In this document: in pieces, positions 3,238 to 59,073 of the stretch
Layout: the number at the start of each line of letters is the position of its first letter
How positions within the stretch are numbered: position 1 is the stretch's first letter
Assembly: GCA_022641835.1 (NCBI GenBank)
Contig: CP048722.1
Span: 310,001-374,000 of the forward strand
DNA: 64,000 nt
Direction of reading: 5' to 3'
DNA from: Petasospora fabianii
Lineage: Eukaryota; Ascomycota; Saccharomycetes; Phaffomycetales; Wickerhamomycetaceae
The notes under the pieces: model-generated
What the model was told of the DNA's origin: nothing
The model's database searches: none
The model's input: only the letters and a program-made list of their open reading frames with translations
Made by a program: the position numbers and the translations under genes

Positions 3238-3949
3238 TTACTGGAAGTCCATGGCCTTTGTAGCCATGAGAAGACCCACGATAAGACCAAAGAGACCTAA
3301 CACGGAACCGAAAATCTCCACAACGAGGATCTTAACAAAGAGTGATGAGTCTGCAGCATCTGAGACTGCAGCAGTGGCACCAGTGATACCGACAGCGACA
3401 CCACAGATCAAGTTACTGATACCAACGGTGAGACCAGCCCAGAAAACAGAGTAACCTGTATAGAGGTTTTCCTTGGAATAGAGGGAGTCTGCCGAGGCAT
3501 TAGTGAGCTTAGAAGAGAAAACAATGGCTGTGATAAGACCATAGATGGCAACAACTTCACAGAAAATGATAGAGATGAGGTTCTTTGTAGTGATACGTGG
3601 TGCTCTAACACCCGCACCGATGATGGAAGATCCAGTGACAAAGATACCCCAAGCAGCGCCGACAACACTGAAGCCGATGCAGCATGCGATACCAAGGTTC
3701 GCCCACATGTAGGGCGAAGTGTGAGAGAGGAAATAACCGACATCAAAAGTCGATCCCTGGCCCGTGAAGAGAATATCTGTTAATGTTAGTGATGACATTC
3801 TAATGGGGGGACAAAAGCCATTAACGTTGGTCTAAAAGCTTGGAAGAAGGGGGGGCAAGAGAGAGATACTTACAGCCACCGTAGATGACGGCAATGGCAG
3901 CAACGAGGCCCGAGAGTGAATAGGACGCAGATGGCAGCTGGATGTCCAT
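3238..3949 (-). CDS. VMA16: V-ATPase V0 proteolipid subunit c'' (spliced)
   Basis: Join: exon 1 3949-3874, intron 3873-3777 (97 nt), exon 2 3776-3238; 204 aa. The donor is GTAAGT, the branch CACTAAC and the acceptor ACAG. Splicing joins YGG to YILFTGQGS, which restores the N-terminal membrane helix and the loop seen in yeast Vma16; reading exon 2 alone from its first ATG would lose helix 1. The protein has five hydrophobic segments. The proton-carrying glutamate is in [11 protein letters not shown] (about E99), and the C-terminal half has the glycine-rich [18 protein letters not shown] signature. It is a rotor-ring proteolipid of the vacuolar proton pump, working with subunits c and c'. S. 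cerevisiae Vma16 is 213 aa, close to this length. THR1 lies upstream in the same orientation, 263 bp away. Confidence 0.96.
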
Positions 3950-19766: not shown

Positions 19767-20697
19767 CTAATCCTCAGTTATCAACTTTATATCTCAACAG
19801 AAACGCCACTGAATAGAGAGAGAGAGAGAGTTGTTTTTGTTTGTTGACCTTAGGGAAGAAAAGGTTTCGCGTTGTTTTCATTTTTAACGCGTTTGTTTTG
19901 TTTTGGTTAAAGAATTTTGTTCACCGGGGCAACTGGTAAAGTTGTTTTTGTTTCCTCCTTCATTTTAATGAAGTTATTTATATACTGATTGAGGTATAGA
20001 AGAGTAAGTCTTTGATTTGTGTCAATGTGGTGTCTCTCTGGTGTCATTTTGTACTTAATTCTGCCCAGGTCTTGCAATTACATCTGATAAGATTCTTACA
20101 CCCGAACATCTCATATATTATTAAACCCGAACACCCTTTTTTAACAAATACATTATAATAAGCATAATAGTATTAAAGGAATTAGTTTCTTAACTTCAAA
20201 AAAAACATCAGTATAGTAGCTAAAATCCTAATTATTTATACTGTTTAGTTGAAAGTATTTAATAGTGAATTTGATGTGTATCGTATTTGAACTTAGTAAA
20301 TTAAAAATTTCGATATAAGGTGATGAAAACTTTATACTATAATTCATATGAATAGCCTTATTGTCAGTTTTTTTTTTTCTTCTTTCATATATTGTCTCTC
20401 AATAACGGAATCGGCATAAAGCTGCTTTAAGTCATTAAAGCAAAGTACTTCCTCAGACCATCATTAGAGCCTCAGAGTGTTTAGACGGCCGTTCAGGCAT
20501 AAGCACCGGTCGGGTCCCCTGTCGGGTCCCCGATAAAATCCTTAATCTCCGAAGGCATGTATAAAGTGTTGGAAGCAAAAGAGACTGGAAAATTGACTTA
20601 TATGACCAACATTAATGGTTTAATCATCGGATTGCTACACTTAGAGGTTACTGGATACCTTAAGAACAAGGCTCAGTCACACACAGAAGTTACAGCA
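19767..20697. promoter_or_regulatory. Divergent promoter, helicase and MFS transporter 1
   Basis: 931 bp. It holds a GA-repeat at about 19816-19832, T-rich sequence, and a tandem 12-bp repeat GTCGGGTCCCC(T/G) at 20509-20532 preceded by CGGCCG. The clustered CGG triplets could be zinc-cluster (Zn2Cys6) regulator sites for the transporter, an inference. A TATA-like ATAAAA lies at about 20533-20538. The frame of the transporter also opens at an ATG at 20557, but that stretch is homologous to non-coding sequence upstream of copy 2. Confidence 0.4.
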
Positions 20698-22281
20698 ATG
20701 ACGAGCCCCAATGAAGTTACAGAGCACACTTCGATCAATACACAACGCAACTCAAGACAAGACCAGTACATTGACAATCTCGAACGCACAGACACTTCAT
20801 TCTCATATCAACCGGATGAAGCAGATATTGAATCACTTTCACGACAAATTTCTCTCCGGTCAGGTAAGGAAAAGGACCCCTTTGAAGTTGTGTTTGATGG
20901 TGTCGACGATAAAGAAGACATTGCCGAAGATATGACAAAGTTTCGCAAGTGGGTTATCACCCTCATAATCGCAATAACTTCGATTTGTGTAACTATGATC
21001 TCATCTGCTTGGTCTATGGCTTCTGAGAACATTCAACAACATTTTAGCATCTCTAGAGAGGTTTCCGTACTGGGTATTTCACTCTACATCTGGGGGCTCG
21101 GTTTAGGTCCAATGTTTCTAAGTCCAATCTCTGAGTTCTATGGAAGGAAAATCACTTATATCATTGGACTTTCTCTTTGTACCGCTTTCCAATTCCTTAC
21201 TGCATTCTCACCAAACTTTGGTGCTCTCATCTTTGGAAGATTCATGTCTGGTTTCTTTGGAAGTTGTTTCCTTAGTATCGCTGGTGGTACCATCACTGAT
21301 ATCTTTAAGAAACATGAGATTGGTGTTCCAATGTGTGTTTATTCTCTTTCACCATTTGCAGGTCCTTCAATTGGTCCACTAATTGCAGGATTCATCAATT
21401 ACAACATCTATTGGAGATGGACTTTCCATGTTCTCATCATCTTTAGTGGTGTTTGTCTTCTTCTTGTCGCTCTGTTCGTCCCAGAGACTTATAAACCAGT
21501 GCTCTTGATTAAGAAAGCTAAGAGATTCAGAATGGCTACAGGTGATGGTCGATACTATTGTGCTCTTGAGATTCTTCAACGTGAACAATCAGTGGTCAGG
21601 ACATGTCTTATGGCACCAAAGCGTCCATTACTTCTTCTCCTCAAAGACCCAATGATGGCAATTCTCTGCTTCTACACTGGAATAGGTCTCGCCACGGTGT
21701 ACCTTTTCTTTATTGCACTCCCCTATATCTTCCGTACTGTCTTTAATTTCTCCCTATGGGCACAAGGAACTGCATTTATGGGGATGCTCATTGGTATGAC
21801 CATTGGTGGATCAACTGCACCATTTTTCCAAGAGATGTATAACAAAAGAGTCGCTAAACTTGGGAAGGGTAAACCAGAATATAGGTTTTATCCATTCATG
21901 ATTGGTGCTTTCGTCATGCCCATTGGACTCTTTATCCTTGCATGGACAGCTTATCCAAATTTACATTGGATGGGTGCTATTGTCGGGAGTGCTGTCTTTG
22001 GTGCTGGTGTCGCTTTAATGTTTCAAGGTGTCTTTGCATACACTGCTGATGGTTATAGATTATATGCTGCTTCTGCCATGGCATGTAATTCATTAGTAAG
22101 AAGTACATTAGCTGGTATTTTCCCACTATTTGGTTATCAAATGATGGTGGGTTGTGGTGTTAATTGGGGTGTTTCCACTTTGGCTTTTATCACTATAATC
22201 TTGATACCAGCACCTTTTTACTTTTATAAGCATGGTGAAAAGTTAAGGGAGAAGAGTCCTTATGCATGGTGTATGGATTGA
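20698..22281 (+). CDS. MFS drug:H+ antiporter (DHA1 family), copy 1
   Basis: 527 aa from the ATG at 20698. A polar N-terminal tail of ~90 residues precedes 12 hydrophobic segments. Family signatures are WGLGLGPMFLSPISEFYGRK (the A-like motif between helices 2 and 3), FLSIAGGTITDIF, SPFAGPSIGPLIAGFINYNIYWRW (the motif C antiporter signature, in helix 5) and LFVPETYKP. The closest known group is fungal multidrug and polyamine transporters of the Flr1/Mdr1/Flu1 type at the plasma membrane; the substrate cannot be told. A longer reading from an ATG at 20557 adds 47 residues, but this extension is not conserved in copy 2, so I prefer 20698. It is a tandem duplicate of the next gene. Confidence 0.88.
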   Translation: MTSPNEVTEHTSINTQRNSRQDQYIDNLERTDTSFSYQPDEADIESLSRQISLRSGKEKDPFEVVFDGVDDKEDIAEDMTKFRKWVITLIIAITSICVTMISSAWSMASENIQQHFSISREVSVLGISLYIWGLGLGPMFLSPISEFYGRKITYIIGLSLCTAFQFLTAFSPNFGALIFGRFMSGFFGSCFLSIAGGTITDIFKKHEIGVPMCVYSLSPFAGPSIGPLIAGFINYNIYWRWTFHVLIIFSGVCLLLVALFVPETYKPVLLIKKAKRFRMATGDGRYYCALEILQREQSVVRTCLMAPKRPLLLLLKDPMMAILCFYTGIGLATVYLFFIALPYIFRTVFNFSLWAQGTAFMGMLIGMTIGGSTAPFFQEMYNKRVAKLGKGKPEYRFYPFMIGAFVMPIGLFILAWTAYPNLHWMGAIVGSAVFGAGVALMFQGVFAYTADGYRLYAASAMACNSLVRSTLAGIFPLFGYQMMVGCGVNWGVSTLAFITIILIPAPFYFYKHGEKLREKSPYAWCMD

Positions 22282-22694: not shown

Positions 22695-24278
22695 ATGACG
22701 AGCCCCAATGCAGTTACAGAGCACACTTCGATCAATACACAACGCAACTCAAGACAAGACCAGTACATTGACAATCTCGAACGCACAGACACTTCATTCT
22801 CATATCAACCGGATGAAGCAGATATTGAATCACTTTCACGACAAATTTCTCTCCGGTCAGGTAAGGAAAAGGACCCCTTTGAAGTTGTGTTTGATGGTGT
22901 CGACGATAAAGAAGACATTGCCGAAGATATGACAAAGTTTCGCAAGTGGGTTATCACCCTCATAATCGCAATAACTTCGATTTGTGTAACTATGATCTCA
23001 TCTGCTTGGTCTATGGCTTCTGAGAACATTCAACAACATTTTAGCATCTCTAGAGAGGTTTCCGTACTGGGTATTTCACTCTACATCTGGGGGCTCGGTT
23101 TAGGTCCAATGTTTCTAAGTCCAATCTCTGAGTTTTATGGAAGAAAAATCACTTATGTCATTGGACTATCTCTTTGTACCGCTTTCCAATTCCTTACTGC
23201 ATTCTCACCAAACTTTGGTGCTCTCATCTTTGGAAGATTTATGTCTGGTTTCTTTGGAAGTTGTTTCCTCAGTATCGCTGGTGGTACCATCACTGATATC
23301 TTTAAGAAGCACGAGATTGGTGTTCCAATGTGTGTTTACTCTCTTTCACCATTTGCAGGTCCTGCAATTGGTCCACTAATTGCAGGATTCATCAATTACA
23401 ACATCTATTGGAGATGGACTTTCCATGTTCTCATCATCTTTAGTGGTGTTTGTCTTCTTCTTGTCGCTCTGTTCGTCCCAGAGACTTATAAACCAGTGCT
23501 TCTTATCAAGAAGGCTAAGAGACTTAGAATGGCCACAGGTGATGATCGGTACTATTGTGCTCTTGAGATTCTCCAACGTGAACAATCAGTGGTCAAGACA
23601 TGTCTTATGGCCCCAAAGCGTCCACTTCTTCTTCTCCTCAAAGACCCAATGATGGCAATTCTCTGCTTCTACACTGGAATAGGCATCGCTACGATGTACC
23701 TCTTCTTCATTGCACTCCCCTATATCTTCCGTACTGTCTTTAATTTCTCCCTCTGGGCACAAGGAACTGCATTTATGGGGATGCTCATTGGTATGGCCAT
23801 TGGTGGATCAACTGCACCATTCTTTCAAGAGATGTATAACAAAAGAGTCGCCAAGTTTGGGAAGGGTAAACCAGAATATAGGTTTTACCCATTCATGATT
23901 GGTGCCTTTGTCATGCCCATTGGACTCTTTATCCTTGCATGGACAGCTTATCCAAATTTACATTGGATGGGTGCTATTGTCGGGAGCTCTGTTTTTGGTG
24001 CTGGTGTCGCTTTAATGTTTCAAGGTGTCGTTGCATACACTGCTGATGGTTATAGATTGTACGCTGCCTCAGCCATGGCATGTAATTCATTAGTAAGAAG
24101 TACATTGGCTGGTATTTTCCCACTGTTTGGTTATCAAATGATGGTGGGTTGTGGTGTTAATTGGGGTGTTTCCACTTTGGCTTTTATCACTATAATCTTG
24201 ATACCTGCACCTTTTTACTTTTATAAGCATGGTGAAAGATTAAGGGAGAAGAGTCCTTATGCATGGAGTATGGATTGA
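22695..24278 (+). CDS. MFS drug:H+ antiporter (DHA1 family), copy 2
   Basis: 527 aa, the same length as copy 1 without gaps. The domains and motifs are as in copy 1: polar tail, 12 membrane segments, motif C in helix 5 (SPFAGPAIGPLIAGF). The first 440 bases differ from copy 1 at a single position; after that differences appear every few tens of bases and most are silent. No in-frame ATG precedes 22695, which fixes the start for both copies. The pattern suggests selection to keep both as working transporters and recent homogenisation of the 5' part. It is convergent with RPL9, 438 bp away. Confidence 0.9.
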   Translation: MTSPNAVTEHTSINTQRNSRQDQYIDNLERTDTSFSYQPDEADIESLSRQISLRSGKEKDPFEVVFDGVDDKEDIAEDMTKFRKWVITLIIAITSICVTMISSAWSMASENIQQHFSISREVSVLGISLYIWGLGLGPMFLSPISEFYGRKITYVIGLSLCTAFQFLTAFSPNFGALIFGRFMSGFFGSCFLSIAGGTITDIFKKHEIGVPMCVYSLSPFAGPAIGPLIAGFINYNIYWRWTFHVLIIFSGVCLLLVALFVPETYKPVLLIKKAKRLRMATGDDRYYCALEILQREQSVVKTCLMAPKRPLLLLLKDPMMAILCFYTGIGIATMYLFFIALPYIFRTVFNFSLWAQGTAFMGMLIGMAIGGSTAPFFQEMYNKRVAKFGKGKPEYRFYPFMIGAFVMPIGLFILAWTAYPNLHWMGAIVGSSVFGAGVALMFQGVVAYTADGYRLYAASAMACNSLVRSTLAGIFPLFGYQMMVGCGVNWGVSTLAFITIILIPAPFYFYKHGERLREKSPYAWSMD

Positions 24279-30702: not shown

Positions 30703-32571
30703 TTATAGAAGCATGAGCACACCAGCAATGATGACAAGCGGGAAGGACAATGTCTTGACATTAGCAGCATTACCACCACCATCACCACCACTACCACCTC
30801 CGGTCTGTGATGCTGTGGTAGTGGAACCTGAGGATGAACCAGTGCTACTTTCTTCACCATTACCACCACCAACCTGTACGTTTGGGAGAGTGGGAGCGGA
30901 GTAGCTATAATCCGAGTAGCTGTAGCTAGAGTAGCTATAACTTGAGTAGCTGTAGCTAGAGTAGCTATAACTTGAGTAGCTGTAGCTAGAGTAGCTATAA
31001 CTTGGGTAGCTGTAGCTAGAGTAGCTATAGCTAGAGTAGCTATAGTCCGTGTTGTAAGTGTAACTTACAGAGGAGTCAGTAGATGAAGGCGATGAAGATG
31101 AAAGAGTTGAAGAAGCTGCAGCAGAGCTGACAGAGACTGAATCACCATTGAAATTGCGGATATCAACACTGTTTGTAGATTTATATGGTGCGACTTGGAC
31201 TTCAAGTTCCTCCAAATCGAAAACAACATAAGCATGTCTCAAGAAAGTATCACCAAGGATATATCTTTGACTTGGCTGGACCATGAGGGCACAATAAGTA
31301 TAAGAGGTATCAGTTGGAGCTAACATGTCTTCGATTGGAACCTTGATTGTAACATCACCAAGCCTGAAATCAAGGGTCATACCAGTTTTGCTAGAAGGAC
31401 AATTGATGTAGTATCTCTCGAGACGAGACGAATACTGGGCTTTTAAACTTCTGGCCAAGTTTATCACAGTGTTTCTTGGAAGGTAATTGAAACTTGTACC
31501 TGAATCCAATAACACAGAGATGGATTCATCCAATAGTGTAACTGTGTCGGAGTCACCTGTAATGGATACACTATTGAGTTCAACGTCAAAAGTGATTGGA
31601 GTATCGACACCTTGGTCCTTGTAATAATTCAATAGAGGTAGTGTAACCAATTCTCCCTCATATTTGGCATGATCAATACCACCAAACAATACAACACCTT
31701 CTGCAGAGTCTGAATCCATATAAAGGGAATAACCAACTTTACTAATGAGTCCTTGGTTCTTCATAGCAACTGGTAAATTTGGATAAGTGAATGCACCACC
31801 TGGGTATCTATCCATGAAACTACCCGTAGAGGCCTCATTACCTTCCAAACCGATACCAAGCACGGTTACAGTAGCATTTGATTGATTAGCAACGGCAAAC
31901 ATCAAGTTATCAATGGTGAAATCACCAAAAGTGACATCATCAGTACCCCATTCACCCGTGGCATATGTCGAATCACCATATTGGATGAAGAAGAAAGATC
32001 CATTACCCTTAAAAGAGGAAGATGATCTGTCAAGAGTACCATATTTAGCACAATCAATAGTTGCCCTTGGAGAAGAACCACTATAAGTAGCTGTTCTTCC
32101 ACTACCTGCTTCAGAGGCAGCTTCAGCAGGGATAGGTTGAGCCTCAGGGTTTCTCTTAACTAAACGGGAATCAGTTGGTCTCTGAAGGATAGCATCAACA
32201 TCTGGTTCAAATTTTCTACCTTTGGATTCTGAACCTGATCTCTTACCCAATCTCTTAGTGGTTTGACAGTATGGGTTATCGGTACCATAGACCCAAAGAT
32301 CAGATGAACCTGTATCGATCATAGTCTCAAACTCTGCACCATCGATAGTGATCCTAGCAGCATAGTAGTATGTCTCATCAGTGATTGAGTACTCTTTAAC
32401 GTCATCTGCTCTCTTGTAAAGAGGTGGACGGTTAAAGAGTCTCTCTGAACGTTTAACATCCTTAATAGCAGTGTCGAAGGATGTACCTCTCAAGATATCA
32501 AATTTGACTGGAATGACCCCATTAGCAGCAACAGTACTGGCAATGAAGCCAAGTAATAGTATTGGATTCAT
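30703..32571 (-). CDS. GPI-anchored aspartyl protease (yapsin), copy C
   Basis: 622 aa from the ATG at 32571. The frame runs further upstream into sequence that looks like promoter DNA; the chosen start gives a clean signal peptide (MNPILLLGFIASTVAANG). The propeptide and mature N-terminus are nearly the same as in copy B (VIPVKFDILRGTSFDTAIKD; YKRADDVKE). The catalytic motifs are MIDTGSSDLWV and VLLDSGTSFNYLP, and a basic loop lies between. The stalk is much longer than in copy B because of a Ser/Tyr repeat (DNA about 30898-31055). The C-terminal GPI signal is AANVKTLSFPLVIIAGVLMLL. It is likely displayed on the plasma membrane or wall. Confidence 0.92.
   Translation of the reverse strand: MNPILLLGFIASTVAANGVIPVKFDILRGTSFDTAIKDVKRSERLFNRPPLYKRADDVKEYSITDETYYYAARITIDGAEFETMIDTGSSDLWVYGTDNPYCQTTKRLGKRSGSESKGRKFEPDVDAILQRPTDSRLVKRNPEAQPIPAEAASEAGSGRTATYSGSSPRATIDCAKYGTLDRSSSSFKGNGSFFFIQYGDSTYATGEWGTDDVTFGDFTIDNLMFAVANQSNATVTVLGIGLEGNEASTGSFMDRYPGGAFTYPNLPVAMKNQGLISKVGYSLYMDSDSAEGVVLFGGIDHAKYEGELVTLPLLNYYKDQGVDTPITFDVELNSVSITGDSDTVTLLDESISVLLDSGTSFNYLPRNTVINLARSLKAQYSSRLERYYINCPSSKTGMTLDFRLGDVTIKVPIEDMLAPTDTSYTYCALMVQPSQRYILGDTFLRHAYVVFDLEELEVQVAPYKSTNSVDIRNFNGDSVSVSSAAASSTLSSSSPSSTDSSVSYTYNTDYSYSSYSYSSYSYPSYSYSSYSYSSYSYSSYSYSSYSYSSYSYSDYSYSAPTLPNVQVGGGNGEESSTGSSSGSTTTASQTGGGSGGDGGGNAANVKTLSFPLVIIAGVLMLL
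30898..31055 (-). repeat. 30-bp coding repeat in the yapsin C stalk
   Basis: A ~30-bp unit encoding SSYSYSSYSY-type decapeptides repeats about four to five times with few changes. Copy B has only a short, irregular version, so the array expanded after duplication or shrank in B. Confidence 0.85.
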
Positions 32572-32871
32572 TGGGATGTAGTGTATATCTAAGCTTTGAT
32601 CATGGCTGTAGATAAGCGAGGATCTGGGCCACCTCTTATATATGCAGGAACGAGAGGAAGTGCACCGAGGAGGAGAGAGAGAGAGGGTGCCAACCCAGCC
32701 TTGGCAGGCAGCCCCTGGAACACGAGGGTCATAGAACCCTTGTTGCATCATGCAGGGTATTATTCTCTTCCCAATCTGTTGGGTATGAACATTACGTATG
32801 CTTCAATTACGACTCGGCTGTATCACTCTGAGAGATCTTGATATGGGTATTTAAGGGTATCTTGACGTATA

Positions 32872-43863: not shown

Positions 43864-44784
43864 TATAGTGTTATGGATTGTAGATTGAAATTCAAATTGA
43901 AGAATTTAATAGGGGAATGACAAGTGTTTGATGTTTTCAAAGGACACTTGTTTATATAGAGCGATAACGCGAGGGTCAAAGGTGTTGGGACTGAATCGGG
44001 GTTGGGTGAATTTGGGAGATTGGATATAGAAATTGCTGTTTTTCTCAAAGAAAAGTCAAAAGATGGACGTTTCAAATGATAAGCAAGGACGATAAAAGGT
44101 AGTATAGTATAAAAACAACTAAGTAAATCCACTTTGTTGAAGAGAAATGTGATGATTTTTTTCTTTCAGTGCGCCGCTCGAGGATTTTGAGTGTCTGCTT
44201 ATTGGTGGAAATACGGCGTTCTAATTGGCTGGCGCGCTCGCGCCTACCCAATGAGGAAACAACTGGCGAAGCCAGTTGTGCCAATTGGCGAAGTCCTCAT
44301 AGGATTTTCGCCATTTGGCGAAATCCACACATCTCTTAAATCCAATGGCACCACTTATTCTTTGTCTGGGCCAATTAAACTGCATACAAAGCATTTGATA
44401 CCCTTTGGACAAAACCTATTAGGCACACTTAAGTAGATAAATAAGACATATACCCTATATGGCGTGATTAAGTTGGTGATAGTAGAGCCTCTCTTATTGG
44501 CTCATTTGATACCCAACCTTATATCTCTTAATCATTCTTATGTCTAAACTATATCTAAGTCACTGGTCTGCCCCATTTGGCGCACATATGCGGGGAACTA
44601 CCTAACTTATTACCTCTATATCTATTTTCATGTATTGTCTTCCCGTGGGCACAGGAAACGTACTCTGTAATAGATAGTATAAATAGTGGATGATTGATCA
44701 TCCAATAAATAAATAACCAAATAAATAATAAATAGTAATAAATAACACGTCAAAGACGTAATAAATAAGGAGTCAGTCTCAATA
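43864..44784. promoter_or_regulatory. COX6 upstream region with inverted-repeat nest
   Basis: 921 bp between the COX6 start and the 3' end of the next gene. It contains the GC-rich inverted-repeat cluster at 44231-44325 (separate entry) and two occurrences of CATTTGATACCC (about 44391 and 44501). No ORF supported. Confidence 0.45.
44231..44325. repeat. Nest of GC-rich inverted repeats
   Basis: Five hairpin-capable elements in 95 bp. They are GGCGCG-CT-CGCGCC (44231-44244); an outer pair ATGAGGA (44251-44257) with TCCTCAT (44294-44300); inside it AACTGGC-GAA-GCCAGTT (44261-44277) and the palindrome CCAATTGG (44281-44288); and GATTTTCGCCA-TT-TGGCGAAATC (44303-44325, one bulge). The motif TGGCGAA recurs three times. 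The function is unknown. Confidence 0.7.
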
Positions 44785-54625: not shown

Positions 54626-55906
54626 TCATCTCATTCTAACAGTATAATCATCACCTGATTGTGTGATATATCTGACCCAAGGATAACTTTGATATTGCAT
54701 CTTTGGTTCATTAATTCTTAAATATCTCACTTGAATACCACTTGTGGTGAAATATGGAATTGAGAATTTGACTTGGATAGGACGTTTAACTTGATGAACA
54801 GGTTCCTCCATAGTAACAGATGGTAAACCCAATTCAGCAGCCATAGCATATTCTTTACCACCTTGGAATTGTTTAACTTTCCAAACAATAACAGATCTTT
54901 CCGGTAACCATTTAACATTACCATGAGAATAACGGAATTTTGGACTATCTGCATCATCTGGAATTGGTATATGGATTTCAACGTTATTAGCAGTAGATTT
55001 CTTCTTAATCTGAGCTCTGATCTTAACAGTGATCTCAACACGTGAATTGTTATGACGTTTGAAATCACAATCAACGTTAATGAGTGGTTTTAATGGTGTT
55101 GCAAGTCTATATGACATCAATTCAAATTCACCATCAGGTGGAATGAAAGTGATGATCTTTTCATTCTCAAACTTGGATAGACGAACACATTGATGGAACT
55201 TGATATCTTCCATTTCAACTCCCTTGGAATTTGAAGTTAGCTTATCATTAAGTCCCAATCTTAGATCTGGCATACCACTAAGATGTGACTTGACTCTAAT
55301 CTTACCGAGGATCTCTGATCTGAGTACTTTCCCCTGGGAATTGATTAACATGTTGATAGATTCAACAACATCAAGGAATGCCTCGTTCTTCTTGTACATA
55401 ATACCTTCATTTCTCCATGAAACTGCATTAGTTATAGCTGAAGGTGGTCCCAATTGTTGTTGTTGTTTCATTCTCTTTTCAAGTTGGTATGACTTTTGAG
55501 TGATATACTCCTTAAGCATCTTGGTCTCTGTGATTTGTGGAGATCCATAATCCATCATTTCATCTAATAACTCATAGATAACTACAAAGTTATCCCTAAT
55601 GGACTCTTCTTCAAGCTCTTTGAAGTAATCAGTCAATACACCAACAACTTTATGCAAGAACAAAAACACCTGTGCCACATTTGTGTTATGTCTCGTGAGG
55701 GCAACGAGATAAAGGTCATTATGAGTGATATAACAGTAATTGATTCCATTATATGAAACGACGGGGGAAGCAGTTGCTGGATCTTCTTCAGCTTCGACAA
55801 GTACAAATGGGAAGTGTTCCATTGCCTGCGCAGGCACATCACCTTTATAATCACGTGAGAGCAACGATTTCCCCTTAACGTCACACAAATGGATAGCTGA
55901 AGCCAT
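54626..55906 (-). CDS. APM1: AP-1 clathrin adaptor mu subunit
   Basis: 426 aa. The N-terminal longin-like domain (MASAIHLCDVKGKSLLSRDYKGDV) is followed by a linker with QQQQLGPPSA, then the mu-homology domain from about residue 160 (VSWRNEGIMYKKNEAFLDVVESINMLINSQG). Signatures of medium chains are LRSEILGKI, LRLGLND, FIPPDGEFELMSYRL and the C-terminal YPWVRYITQSGDDYTVR. The subunit binds YxxPhi sorting signals at the trans-Golgi and endosomes. The sequence MSYRL after FEL is the typical mu1 motif, so Apm1 is preferred over mu2/Apm4. Confidence 0.94.
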   Translation of the reverse strand: MASAIHLCDVKGKSLLSRDYKGDVPAQAMEHFPFVLVEAEEDPATASPVVSYNGINYCYITHNDLYLVALTRHNTNVAQVFLFLHKVVGVLTDYFKELEEESIRDNFVVIYELLDEMMDYGSPQITETKMLKEYITQKSYQLEKRMKQQQQLGPPSAITNAVSWRNEGIMYKKNEAFLDVVESINMLINSQGKVLRSEILGKIRVKSHLSGMPDLRLGLNDKLTSNSKGVEMEDIKFHQCVRLSKFENEKIITFIPPDGEFELMSYRLATPLKPLINVDCDFKRHNNSRVEITVKIRAQIKKKSTANNVEIHIPIPDDADSPKFRYSHGNVKWLPERSVIVWKVKQFQGGKEYAMAAELGLPSVTMEEPVHQVKRPIQVKFSIPYFTTSGIQVRYLRINEPKMQYQSYPWVRYITQSGDDYTVRMR

Positions 55907-56039
55907 TGATTATCTTATGTGTCTCTTCTGTATAGGATTGATTGATCGTATCTCTTTGTGTAGTTATAGGATGAATGATCTGAAGAGTAAACGATTTGAT
56001 GTGCTGGAGGTTGTCGAGTTTCGCGTTCGCGCTTATTCT

Positions 56040-56126
56040 ATATGAGACTCATATAGCTATATATAAGACTAGAAGACTATATAGACTATATATAGCTATA
56101 TATCTGCTATATAGATATATATAAGA
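56040..56126. repeat. TATATAGCTATATA-rich direct and inverted repeats
   Basis: Alternating TATA/AGCT/GACTATATAG units in the divergent promoter between APM1 and the coiled-coil gene, ending 3 bp before its ATG. Confidence 0.7.
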
Positions 56127-56128
56127 CC

Positions 56129-56626
56129 ATGGATGGACTTGAGTCTGTGTTGTCACCAGAGGACAAAGAACATCATCAACATCTCTTAAAATCCCTAAAT
56201 AAGGCCAAGAGGGACTATGCTACGTTTCTCGAGAACACAAGGAACAAGTACAAGCACAAGATTGAGGAACAAGAGAAGAAAGACAGTCCTAATCAGTTGG
56301 ATGAAGCATGGGATTATACACAGAAACATATCCTTACCAATGAATCATTAAGACAGGATATAAAAACACTAATTGACCGTCAATCCCAATTGGAACGATC
56401 TCTTGAAATAACAAATAAGAAGCTTATGCTCTCAAGGGCATCATCATCATTACTTACAAACTTCTATAACGATTGTCTAAGGAAAATGGAGGCATTGACG
56501 AAAGAACAACACGCTATATTGAAAGATATGGGTATCCCATTCATCAAATCTACAGATAACTATAACTCAATCACAGAGGACGGCATTGAATTACTACATC
56601 GCATCCATGATGCTATAAACAAATGA
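56129..56626 (+). CDS. Unrecognised coiled-coil protein
   Basis: 165 aa, ATG in the context ACCATGG. It is acidic/basic-rich and mostly helical. The first helix covers about residues 11-55 (HHQHLLKSLNKAKRDYATFLENTRNKY in pieces), the second about 80-150, with LERSLEITNKKL and LRKMEALTKEQHAILKDM. There is no signal peptide, membrane segment or zinc motif. Its composition resembles small subunits of kinetochore, BLOC or dynactin-type complexes, but I cannot assign it. Codon use resembles its neighbours, so a real gene is likely. It sits directly upstream of the structured-RNA candidate, which could be its 3' UTR. Confidence 0.7.
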   Translation: MDGLESVLSPEDKEHHQHLLKSLNKAKRDYATFLENTRNKYKHKIEEQEKKDSPNQLDEAWDYTQKHILTNESLRQDIKTLIDRQSQLERSLEITNKKLMLSRASSSLLTNFYNDCLRKMEALTKEQHAILKDMGIPFIKSTDNYNSITEDGIELLHRIHDAINK

Positions 56627-57062
56627 ATGTAAGTGAGCTTGGAGACTCCGGGTGGTTTCGTAGTCCTCTTTAAGAGAACTAACACCCGATGTACTATGAT
56701 GCACTTGGTATAAGTCTTTTGTCTCCACGAGCTTTCTTATATCCCAGAGGATCTCTGGGATAGAAACACTGATGACCTGCCCTAAGACGGTTGCCCAAAA
56801 CGGGAACCAGGAGAAGGGATGTTGGATCAGTAGTTAAAGATCACTGCCAGATCATGTGTTAACCCGTGTTGATAATATGATTTAGTGAATTAAATAAATA
56901 AAAGAATTAAGAGAATTAAATAAATAAATTTTTTTTTTATTAAGGAAAAAGATATGGTATGGGCAACACACAACAGGGCTACAATAAAAATGTATTAAGT
57001 ATACATTATTTGTATCAGAGATAGACAATTGATATAATGAAGTATGTATAGTGATAAGAAGG
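56627..57062. other. Intergenic, 3' ends of coiled-coil gene and SGN1
   Basis: 436 bp; contains the structured-RNA candidate and, after it, A/T-rich sequence with AAATAAAT repeats and the T-run. Confidence 0.5.
56634..56831 (+). ncRNA. Candidate structured RNA, unidentified
   Basis: About 200 nt, GC-richer than its flanks, starting 8 nt after the coiled-coil gene. Four consistent stems. (1) 56640-56646 with 56721-56727 (7 bp), continued by AGCT 56636-56639 with 56730-56733. (2) Inside it, CGGGTG 56649-56654 with CACCCG 56683-56688, TAGT 56661-56664 with ACTA 56678-56681, and CTC/GAG with a TTTAA loop. (3) A perfect 10-bp hairpin 56740-56749/56753-56762 with loop GAT. (4) CTGAT 56769-56773 with ATCAG 56826-56830, enclosing GGTT/AACC and CCC/GGG with loop AAAAC. 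A run of ten T at 56929-56938 could terminate Pol III. ATAGAA (56760-56765) resembles an H box, but no ACA box follows 56830. No match to U-RNAs, SRP, RNase P or MRP that I know. Confidence 0.5.
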
Positions 57063-57740
57063 TTAAGTATCATCAATTGACAACTTATCAATGTCCTTAG
57101 TCAAGTCTTTTGCATCATTGAGGTTGGTAATATCTGCATCACTAGTACCAACTGTCTTACCTCCTCTGGAAACATTATGACCTAAACCACCTCTATGACC
57201 TCTCCCACGACCTCTACCTCGATTTCCTCTTCCCCTATGACTCTTGAAACCAGGTAAATTGGTTCTCTTACCGACAACAGTGATTGAACGACCCCTAAAT
57301 TCTGATCCATTAAGCTCATTAACAGCCTTACTAACAGATTCATTGTTTTCAAATTCAACATAGGCATAACCCTTTGGATAACCGGTAAACCTATCAAACA
57401 GAATAGTAATTCTGTTAATTGTACCACATATTTTGAAGAATTTCTCTAATTCATCAGGTGTACTTTCATAATCAACGTTTCCAACGTATACGGATCGAGA
57501 ATCAACTTCATGTTGTTTTGCCAATTCTTCTGGTGTCTTACTTGTTTGACCGGGGATTAATCGATGTCTCGAAGGTTTAGTCGTCTGTGTGTCAGTGGTG
57601 GTACTAGTACCACTAGTACTAGTAGTACTAGCACCACCAGCACCAGTAACTCCTTCTGTCTGTACTGACTTACTCTCCTCTAATGGATCAACCTTCTTCT
57701 CTTCTTCATGTGCTTTATGAGGAAGCTCGTTGTTACTCAT
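57063..57740 (-). CDS. SGN1: RRM/RGG protein, PABPN1-like Sgn1
   Basis: 225 aa. A Thr/Ser-rich N-terminus ([14 protein letters not shown]) is followed by one RRM at about residues 87-165, with RNP2 VYVGNVDY and RNP1 [10 protein letters not shown]. An Arg-Gly tail follows ([18 protein letters not shown]). The RRM is of the nuclear poly(A)-binding protein 2 type ([22 protein letters not shown]). S. cerevisiae Sgn1 binds poly(A) RNA and acts with eIF4G in translation. AIM21-like lies 5 kb away, as SGN1 and AIM21 are close in S. cerevisiae (from memory). Confidence 0.85.
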
Positions 57741-58416
57741 TGTTATTTGATGTATATCGTATCGTGTGGATCTTATGGTGTGCTTGATTTGTACCTTTGG
57801 GCTGTTTTCGATAAGACGTAATGTGGGGTTGCTTCGGAGTGTATAACTGTGTACAGAAGACCAATACTGTCAAAGCTGTCAAAACTGTCAAAGCTATTCA
57901 ACAAATGTCAAAGCGTAAAAGAAGAAGCAATAAATCAATTGATCTCCTGATTGCTTTCTACAAGTCTGGATTGGAGCACGCATTTTATATATTCTGAAGA
58001 GGGACACAATCGAGGAGTAAATTGTTCCTATGCAACCAATTAGGCGCACTTACATTGTTCTGTAATGTGTCTTATGGCTCTATAACTTATGATAGCTAAT
58101 TGGTAGTCTGTATCAATGGACTAAGGATCACAAAGATCAATTCCCTTGGAGTATTAGATAGTCAATCATTAAAGTACTATTTCCCCTGTCCCGATCCGGC
58201 AGTGCTATATACTTAACAGGGGCTACCCGGCCTTTACCAAACAATAAAAAAAATAAAAAAAAATAAAATAAAAAAAAAACCGGATTACATAAGCACCCAT
58301 ACACCACAAATCATCTCTTCTAAAAAACTTTCTTAAAGCTCATCTCATCTTAAGTTTGATCTAATCTCTTTAGCTTGGTTTCTCTTTCTTAGGGCCAACG
58401 ATTATCAAAAGACAAA
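57741..58416. promoter_or_regulatory. SGN1-NOP16 divergent promoter
   Basis: 676 bp. CTGTCAAA(G/A) repeats three times in tandem (about 57867-57893) with a fourth, spaced copy. A-rich tract at 58243-58279. AGCTCATCTCATCTT near 58337-58351 is PAC-like but not exact. Confidence 0.4.
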
Positions 58417-59073
58417 ATGGGATCCGTCAGACAACACAGAAAGGCTAAACGTTCTGTACGTAAGGCGACACGTCGTACAAAGGATAAACAACGTGAGATT
58501 AATATTGCTTCAAATCCAATCATTGCCGCAAACTGGGATTATAATCTTACATTAGCACAAAATTATAAAAGATTAGGATTAACTGCTCGTTTGGGTACCG
58601 CTGCCGGTGGTGAAGAGGCTGATTTGAATGTTGTTAGAGAGAGAAAACCTATTGAGGAGATTGAGAAGATTGATGTGGATGATAAAGATGATGATGATGA
58701 TGAGATTGATGAATGGAAAATTCCTGAAGGTGAGGCTAGAATTGTAAGGGATGATGAGGGAAATGTTGTTAAAGTGATATATGGTAAGAAGAAACCCCTC
58801 AATGATGATATGGAACTTGTTGATTCTCCAAAAGTTGAAGCTAAGACTGAAGTTGTTAAACAACTTGAAGCTTATGCTCAATCTAGAGCTGGTGTTAAAC
58901 AAGTTAGAAAACAAAGTGAAAGGGAAGAAGCATGGATTCAGGCACTTTATGAGAAATATGGTGATGATTATGATAAGATGAAATGGGATAAGAAACTCAA
59001 CATTTATCAACAAAGTCCCGGTGATCTGAAAAAGAGAATCACAAGATGGAAGAAGAATCATAACATTGTTTAA
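58417..59073 (+). CDS. NOP16: Nucleolar ribosome biogenesis protein Nop16
   Basis: 218 aa (S. cerevisiae 231). A basic N-terminus (MGSVRQHRKAKRSVRKATRRTKDKQREI) is followed by the family motif NPIIAANWDYNLTLAQNYKRLGL. An acidic centre (DVDDKDDDDDEIDEWKI) and the conserved C-terminal EAWIQALYEKYGDDYDKMKWDKKLNIYQQSPGDLKKRI block complete the protein. It is a 60S assembly factor. It is convergent with PMI40, the same pair as in S. cerevisiae (from memory). Confidence 0.96.
   Translation: MGSVRQHRKAKRSVRKATRRTKDKQREINIASNPIIAANWDYNLTLAQNYKRLGLTARLGTAAGGEEADLNVVRERKPIEEIEKIDVDDKDDDDDEIDEWKIPEGEARIVRDDEGNVVKVIYGKKKPLNDDMELVDSPKVEAKTEVVKQLEAYAQSRAGVKQVRKQSEREEAWIQALYEKYGDDYDKMKWDKKLNIYQQSPGDLKKRITRWKKNHNIV

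Follow-up and report, generated by a model that had tools for sequence, protein, structure and literature searches.

Genomic setting of the locus

The window, by which we mean the whole 64-kb stretch of DNA analysed here, holds an intergenic segment between a 165-amino-acid open reading frame on the plus strand (ORF; 56129-56626) and a gene for an RRM protein on the minus strand (57740-57063). An initial annotation had drawn attention to 56634-56831 within this segment as a candidate multi-hairpin RNA. The 165-aa ORF had no Pfam match at 0.001 (weak ones stood at 0.036 or above), and its best PDB match had an E-value of 0.03. Beyond the RRM gene lies Nop16 (58417-59073), whose closest match was the 231-residue chain of entry 11aa, the S. 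cerevisiae protein (222.6 bits; the next match scored 94.4). Taken with a genome of this size and contig number (12.3 Mb, 16 contigs), that match points to a budding yeast. The structured stretch is richer in GC than its flanks, as had been remarked, with 0.475 over 56634-56831 and 0.368-0.381 in the 1-kb bins that cover 55001 to 58000 (the locus falls in the second of the three). The locus was its own sole match in a search of the 12.3-Mb genome (16 contigs), and within 55900-58420 the only direct repeat to overlap 56625-56868 was a 32-nt pair of 72% identity.

Several other features of the window were recorded along the way. Two adjacent reading frames (20557-22281 and 22695-24278) have the peptides REVSVLGISLY and LLLVALFVPET in common and look like tandem copies of a family that we take to be sugar transporters. 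Over 30869-31059, inside the reading frame 30703-32751, a GAGTAGCTATAACTT-like unit of 15 nt is repeated in tandem. The intergenic stretch 44080-44460 has a very stable fold (z = -4.68 on the plus and -3.99 on the minus strand) and, by eye, many CCAAT/ATTGG motifs; it may represent a CCAAT-box promoter or a further structured element. Recoding of CUG was considered and rejected: CTG is rare (23 codons in ten frames) yet stands at leucine-like positions, for instance in the transporter-like frames.

Fold stability and strand

On the plus strand, 56634-56831 folds with a minimum free energy (MFE) of -67.5 kcal/mol, where its shuffles averaged -54.24 (sd 4.05; z = -3.27), and 2 of 200 shuffles did equally well or better, which bears out the stable structure proposed from inspection of the letters. 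The plus-strand MFE fold also contains the stems that had been described, namely a closing stem, inner hairpins, a perfect 10-bp hairpin with a 3-nt loop and a branched last stem, the closing stem being present as 7+5 bp in place of the 7+4 bp originally given. Comparison with shuffled controls showed the real sequence to be more stable on both strands: the minus strand over 56870-56624 reached an MFE of -81.5 (z = -4.42), with none of 200 shuffles as stable. The minus strand was the more stable one in all five stretches compared, among them 56624-56868 (-81.2 versus -76.5) and the originally annotated 56634-56831 (-70.2 versus -67.5). This stability is unusual, though not unique within the window, since 6 of 1276 strand-windows (245 nt, step of 100 nt, across the 64 kb) equal or exceed the minus-strand locus in folding.

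These results bear on the possibility, raised in the initial annotation, that the structure is a 3' UTR element of the plus-strand ORF at 56129-56626. The structure does start at that ORF's stop codon, and the plus strand folds well too, but the greater stability of the minus strand in every stretch compared, together with a guide pocket that is complete on the minus strand only (the plus-strand place, at 56657, has no lower stem), makes this explanation highly improbable. On the same two grounds the minus strand is better supported as the coding strand than the plus strand that had been assumed; the structure within 56634-56831 is real, and the probable element is longer, running from about 56868 to 56625.

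Anatomy of the predicted minus-strand RNA

Read on the minus strand, the locus can be laid out as follows.

About 56625-56868, minus strand: predicted mature box H/ACA snoRNA, 244 nt (MFE -81.2; z = -4.42 over 56624-56870; sub-threshold Rfam H/ACA matches)
56726-56868, minus strand: predicted branched 5' domain, 143 nt (MFE and constrained folds)
56740-56762, minus strand: 10-bp hairpin with 3-nt loop, the one first noticed in the initial annotation, here a branch of the 5' domain (folds)
56719-56724, minus strand: candidate box H, AGACAA, which fits ANANNA; 1 nt past the 5' domain, inside a 19-nt hinge that runs to 56707
56631-56706, minus strand: 3' hairpin with predicted pseudouridylation pocket, lower stem AAGUG/CACUU (fold with hinge, arms and ACA unpaired; also seen with a shorter piece)
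56693-56699, minus strand: predicted left guide arm UCAUAGU, the complement of ACUAUGA in helix 69
56645-56692, minus strand: upper stem (-19.2 kcal/mol), which links the two guide arms and is closed next to each of them
56641-56644, minus strand: predicted right guide arm CUCC, the complement of GGAG in helix 69
56628-56630, minus strand: candidate box ACA, 14 nt past the upper stem and 3 nt from the predicted 3' end at 56625, which is itself set by ACA+3
56929-56938, minus strand: A10 tract (T10 on the plus strand), lying 61-70 nt before the predicted start of the RNA

To place the ends, we used the lower stem of the 5' domain on one side and ACA+3 on the 3' side. With these ends, the snoRNA gene would sit downstream of the same-strand RRM gene and convergent with the 165-aa ORF, whose stop codon overlaps the predicted 3' end on the opposite strand. 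The T10 run that had been reported to follow the structure is present; it lies upstream of the predicted RNA on that RNA's own strand and is thus not its terminator, and may possibly belong to the promoter context.

The consensus of box H is ANANNA, and the locus has the layout of box H/ACA snoRNAs, with two domains joined by a hinge that carries a candidate box H, the 5' domain being branched and not a simple hairpin. In this 5' domain a lower stem pairs 56868-56861 with 56734-56726 (CACGGGUU/AAGCUCGUG), a long stem pairs 56860-56848 with 56779-56765, and side hairpins branch off; inspection by eye recognised no canonical guide pocket in it. Forcing the hinge, arms and ACA to be unpaired yielded the canonical 3' hairpin layout at -75.7 against the MFE of -81.2, a cost of 5.5 kcal/mol. 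That the guide arms are partly paired in the unconstrained MFE fold counts against the H/ACA reading, as does the short right arm, which pairs over 4 bp only. The rules for H/ACA guides, as given in the portion of PMC2780460 consulted, place the target uridine 14-16 nt from the box and ask for 9-13 bp of bipartite guide pairing. At this locus ACA follows the upper stem by 14 nt and guide pairing amounts to 7+4 = 11 bp, the helix 69 letters used here being those of other species, taken partly from print.

Comparison with known RNA families

At gathering thresholds, the Rfam scan of the 64-kb window gave no match. A permissive scan of 56560-56980 gave two, both on the minus strand (56772-56624/5) and both to H/ACA snoRNAs: S. 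pombe snR94 (RF01445; 20.1 bits, where the gathering score is 100, E = 0.39) and SNORA23 (RF00319; 16.1 bits against 45, E = 0.57). When the scan was confined to 56620-56875 the E-values were 0.24 for snR94 and 0.35 for SNORA23, with a third, unrelated match at 4.9; with the 3' part alone they were 0.048 and 3.3, and an unrelated match stood at 6.9. How such scores should be read is indicated by an unrelated family with E = 0.15 at a different structured place in the window, and by 14 control genomes, of which 3 gave matches below the cut-off of RF01445 and 4 below that of RF00319, so that weak matches of this kind are common. Whole-genome searches with the two families, which scored 34 of the 307 candidates from a first look with RF01445 and 35 of the 423 with RF00319, gave no match at E-values up to 10, this locus included. 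MRP, snRNAs and U3 gave no match at the locus when it and the window were scanned with Rfam, RNase P RNA (RF00009) and SRP RNA (RF01502) each gave one match, on contigs C2 and C1, and no tRNA was found by ARAGORN with bacterial settings.

Both family alignments nevertheless span from end to end in the same word order, with UCAUAGUAC, a hairpin, CUCCAA and an ACA near the end. Like the locus, S. pombe snR94 has a 3' pocket made of UCAUAGUAC and GUCUCCAA, with ACAU close to its 3' end; unlike it, the match stops at 56772 and leaves most of the locus's 5' domain uncovered, at 20.1 of 100 bits. SNORA23 (ACA23) resembles the locus in its arms (AUCAUAGUAC and CUCCAA), its ACA box, its full-length alignment and its helix 69 target, and differs in that the score is 16.1 of 45 bits and the locus has no recognised second pocket. 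The locus is also intergenic, whereas the human SNORA23 host gene is listed as IPO7 in the portion of PMC6466398 consulted. Given that the gathering scores are not reached, we class the locus as an H/ACA RNA predicted to share the guide function of snR94/SNORA23, and stop short of calling it a proven orthologue. A published target of S. pombe snR94 was not found in the literature searched, and the consulted portions of PMC2780460 and PMC4605285 do not mention snR94.

A predicted target in LSU helix 69

Set against helix 69 letters of other species, the arms are those expected of an snR94/SNORA23 orthologue directed at a helix 69 uridine. The CUCC and UCAUAGU pocket would pair with helix 69 as GGAG-U-A-ACUAUGA and would present a single uridine to the pseudouridine synthase; the RNA, if transcribed, would bind the H/ACA core proteins. 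By its position, this uridine would correspond to S. cerevisiae 25S U2254 and human 28S psi3737, in the helix 69 inter-subunit bridge. In the species' own rDNA the target is expected to read GGAGUAACUAUGA, and the helix 69 site presumably reads the same across yeasts. Searches of the assembly for the species' own rRNA gave no 5.8S match and no match to the helix 69 pattern, and among viral contigs there was no match to a eukaryotic LSU.

The numbering rests on published modification series, as far as the excerpted sources go. SNORA23 is listed as the guide of 28S-3737 and -4331 (PMC6466398), the human helix 69 sites are given as psi3737, Am3739, psi3741, psi3743, psi3747 and psi3749 (PMC6182160), and those of S. 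cerevisiae as Am2256, psi2258, psi2260, psi2264 and psi2266 (PMC8307265). The two excerpted series line up, which puts the U of GGAGU at position 3737 in human and 2254 in yeast; in the part of the S. cerevisiae modification table consulted, the rows pass from 2220 to 2256, without 2254 (PMC8307265). For T. brucei, the excerpt of PMC10662448 lists helix 69 sites at 518, 522, 524, 528 and 530, five positions that repeat this spacing and make psi518 the same site; its guide, TB9Cs2H1, resembles the predicted RNA in the position served. The 28S-derived GGCGGGAGTAACTATGACTCTCTT is printed among animal R2 junction sequences in the portion of PMC3774820 consulted, and part of it as a 28S primer in that of PMC7650587.

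Chance expectation of the pocket

A genome-wide pattern of both arms, 35-65 nt between them and an ACA 9-11 nt further on was found in at least 13 places in the 12.3 Mb, against at least 16 for a reversed control (both counts are lower bounds for repeats), so that arm and ACA words alone mean little. Closure of the stem is more discriminating: among the 13 listed places it was closed at both arms in one, which is this locus (offsets 1 and 0, with -19.2 kcal/mol, all allowed spacings having been tried), while the other 12 had energies of -0.4 to -16.7 and were not closed at both ends. With a fuller pocket descriptor that allows wobble pairs, and that was drawn up after the locus had been inspected, the real window contained one complete place, again this locus. 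Arms with ACA occurred 28 times in the window under this wobble descriptor, against a shuffle mean of 17.79, and the complete descriptor was matched in 17 of 100 whole-window shuffles; a strict form had one match in 300 such shuffles.

Two further explanations can be weighed against these counts. The minus strand might carry a structured RNA of another class whose likeness to H/ACA is fortuitous, or the stretch might be the RRM gene's 3' UTR. The sub-threshold Rfam scores, a 5' domain with no recognised pocket and the stop codon of the RRM gene only about 195 nt away would all suit such an origin. We nevertheless consider it very unlikely, because the combination of guide arms, a closed stem, a lower stem and the right distance to ACA turned up in 5 (wobble) or 0 (strict) of 10,000 shuffles of 56600-56940, because the stem is closed in a single one of the listed genomic places, and because RNase P RNA (103.6 bits) and SRP RNA (126.7 bits) have their matches on other contigs. 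An inactive snoRNA pseudogene is a scarcely credible alternative: boxes, arms and stems appear intact, and the genome holds no other match to the locus.

We conclude that the minus strand of the locus very probably carries a solitary gene for a box H/ACA snoRNA, with a 3' pocket predicted to guide modification of LSU helix 69. Among the three options that had been put forward for it, a snoRNA is thus the best supported, whereas a structured 3' UTR is highly improbable and the RNA does not look like a new class, the arms and layout being like those of known H/ACA guides.

Implications for helix 69 modification in yeasts

Most likely, then, the locus represents a diverged member of an established class of RNA, not a new class, and its predicted guide function is that of snR94/SNORA23. 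A bolder proposal, which we hold to be rather unlikely, is that a budding-yeast-type genome keeps a guide for a fifth helix 69 pseudouridine, which S. cerevisiae is without, and that this guide is attached to a branched, expanded 5' domain of 143 nt, which has no known guide target and may play another part, in the assembly of ribosomes.

If the predicted gene is genuine, it would be an example of a diverged H/ACA guide lying under the Rfam cut-offs, and a structured stretch that had no name would become a testable gene with one defined rRNA position. The lineage would then retain a guide for a helix 69 uridine that is not listed as modified in S. cerevisiae in the excerpted table of PMC8307265, and the locus would be useful for tracing the loss of ribosome modification among yeasts.
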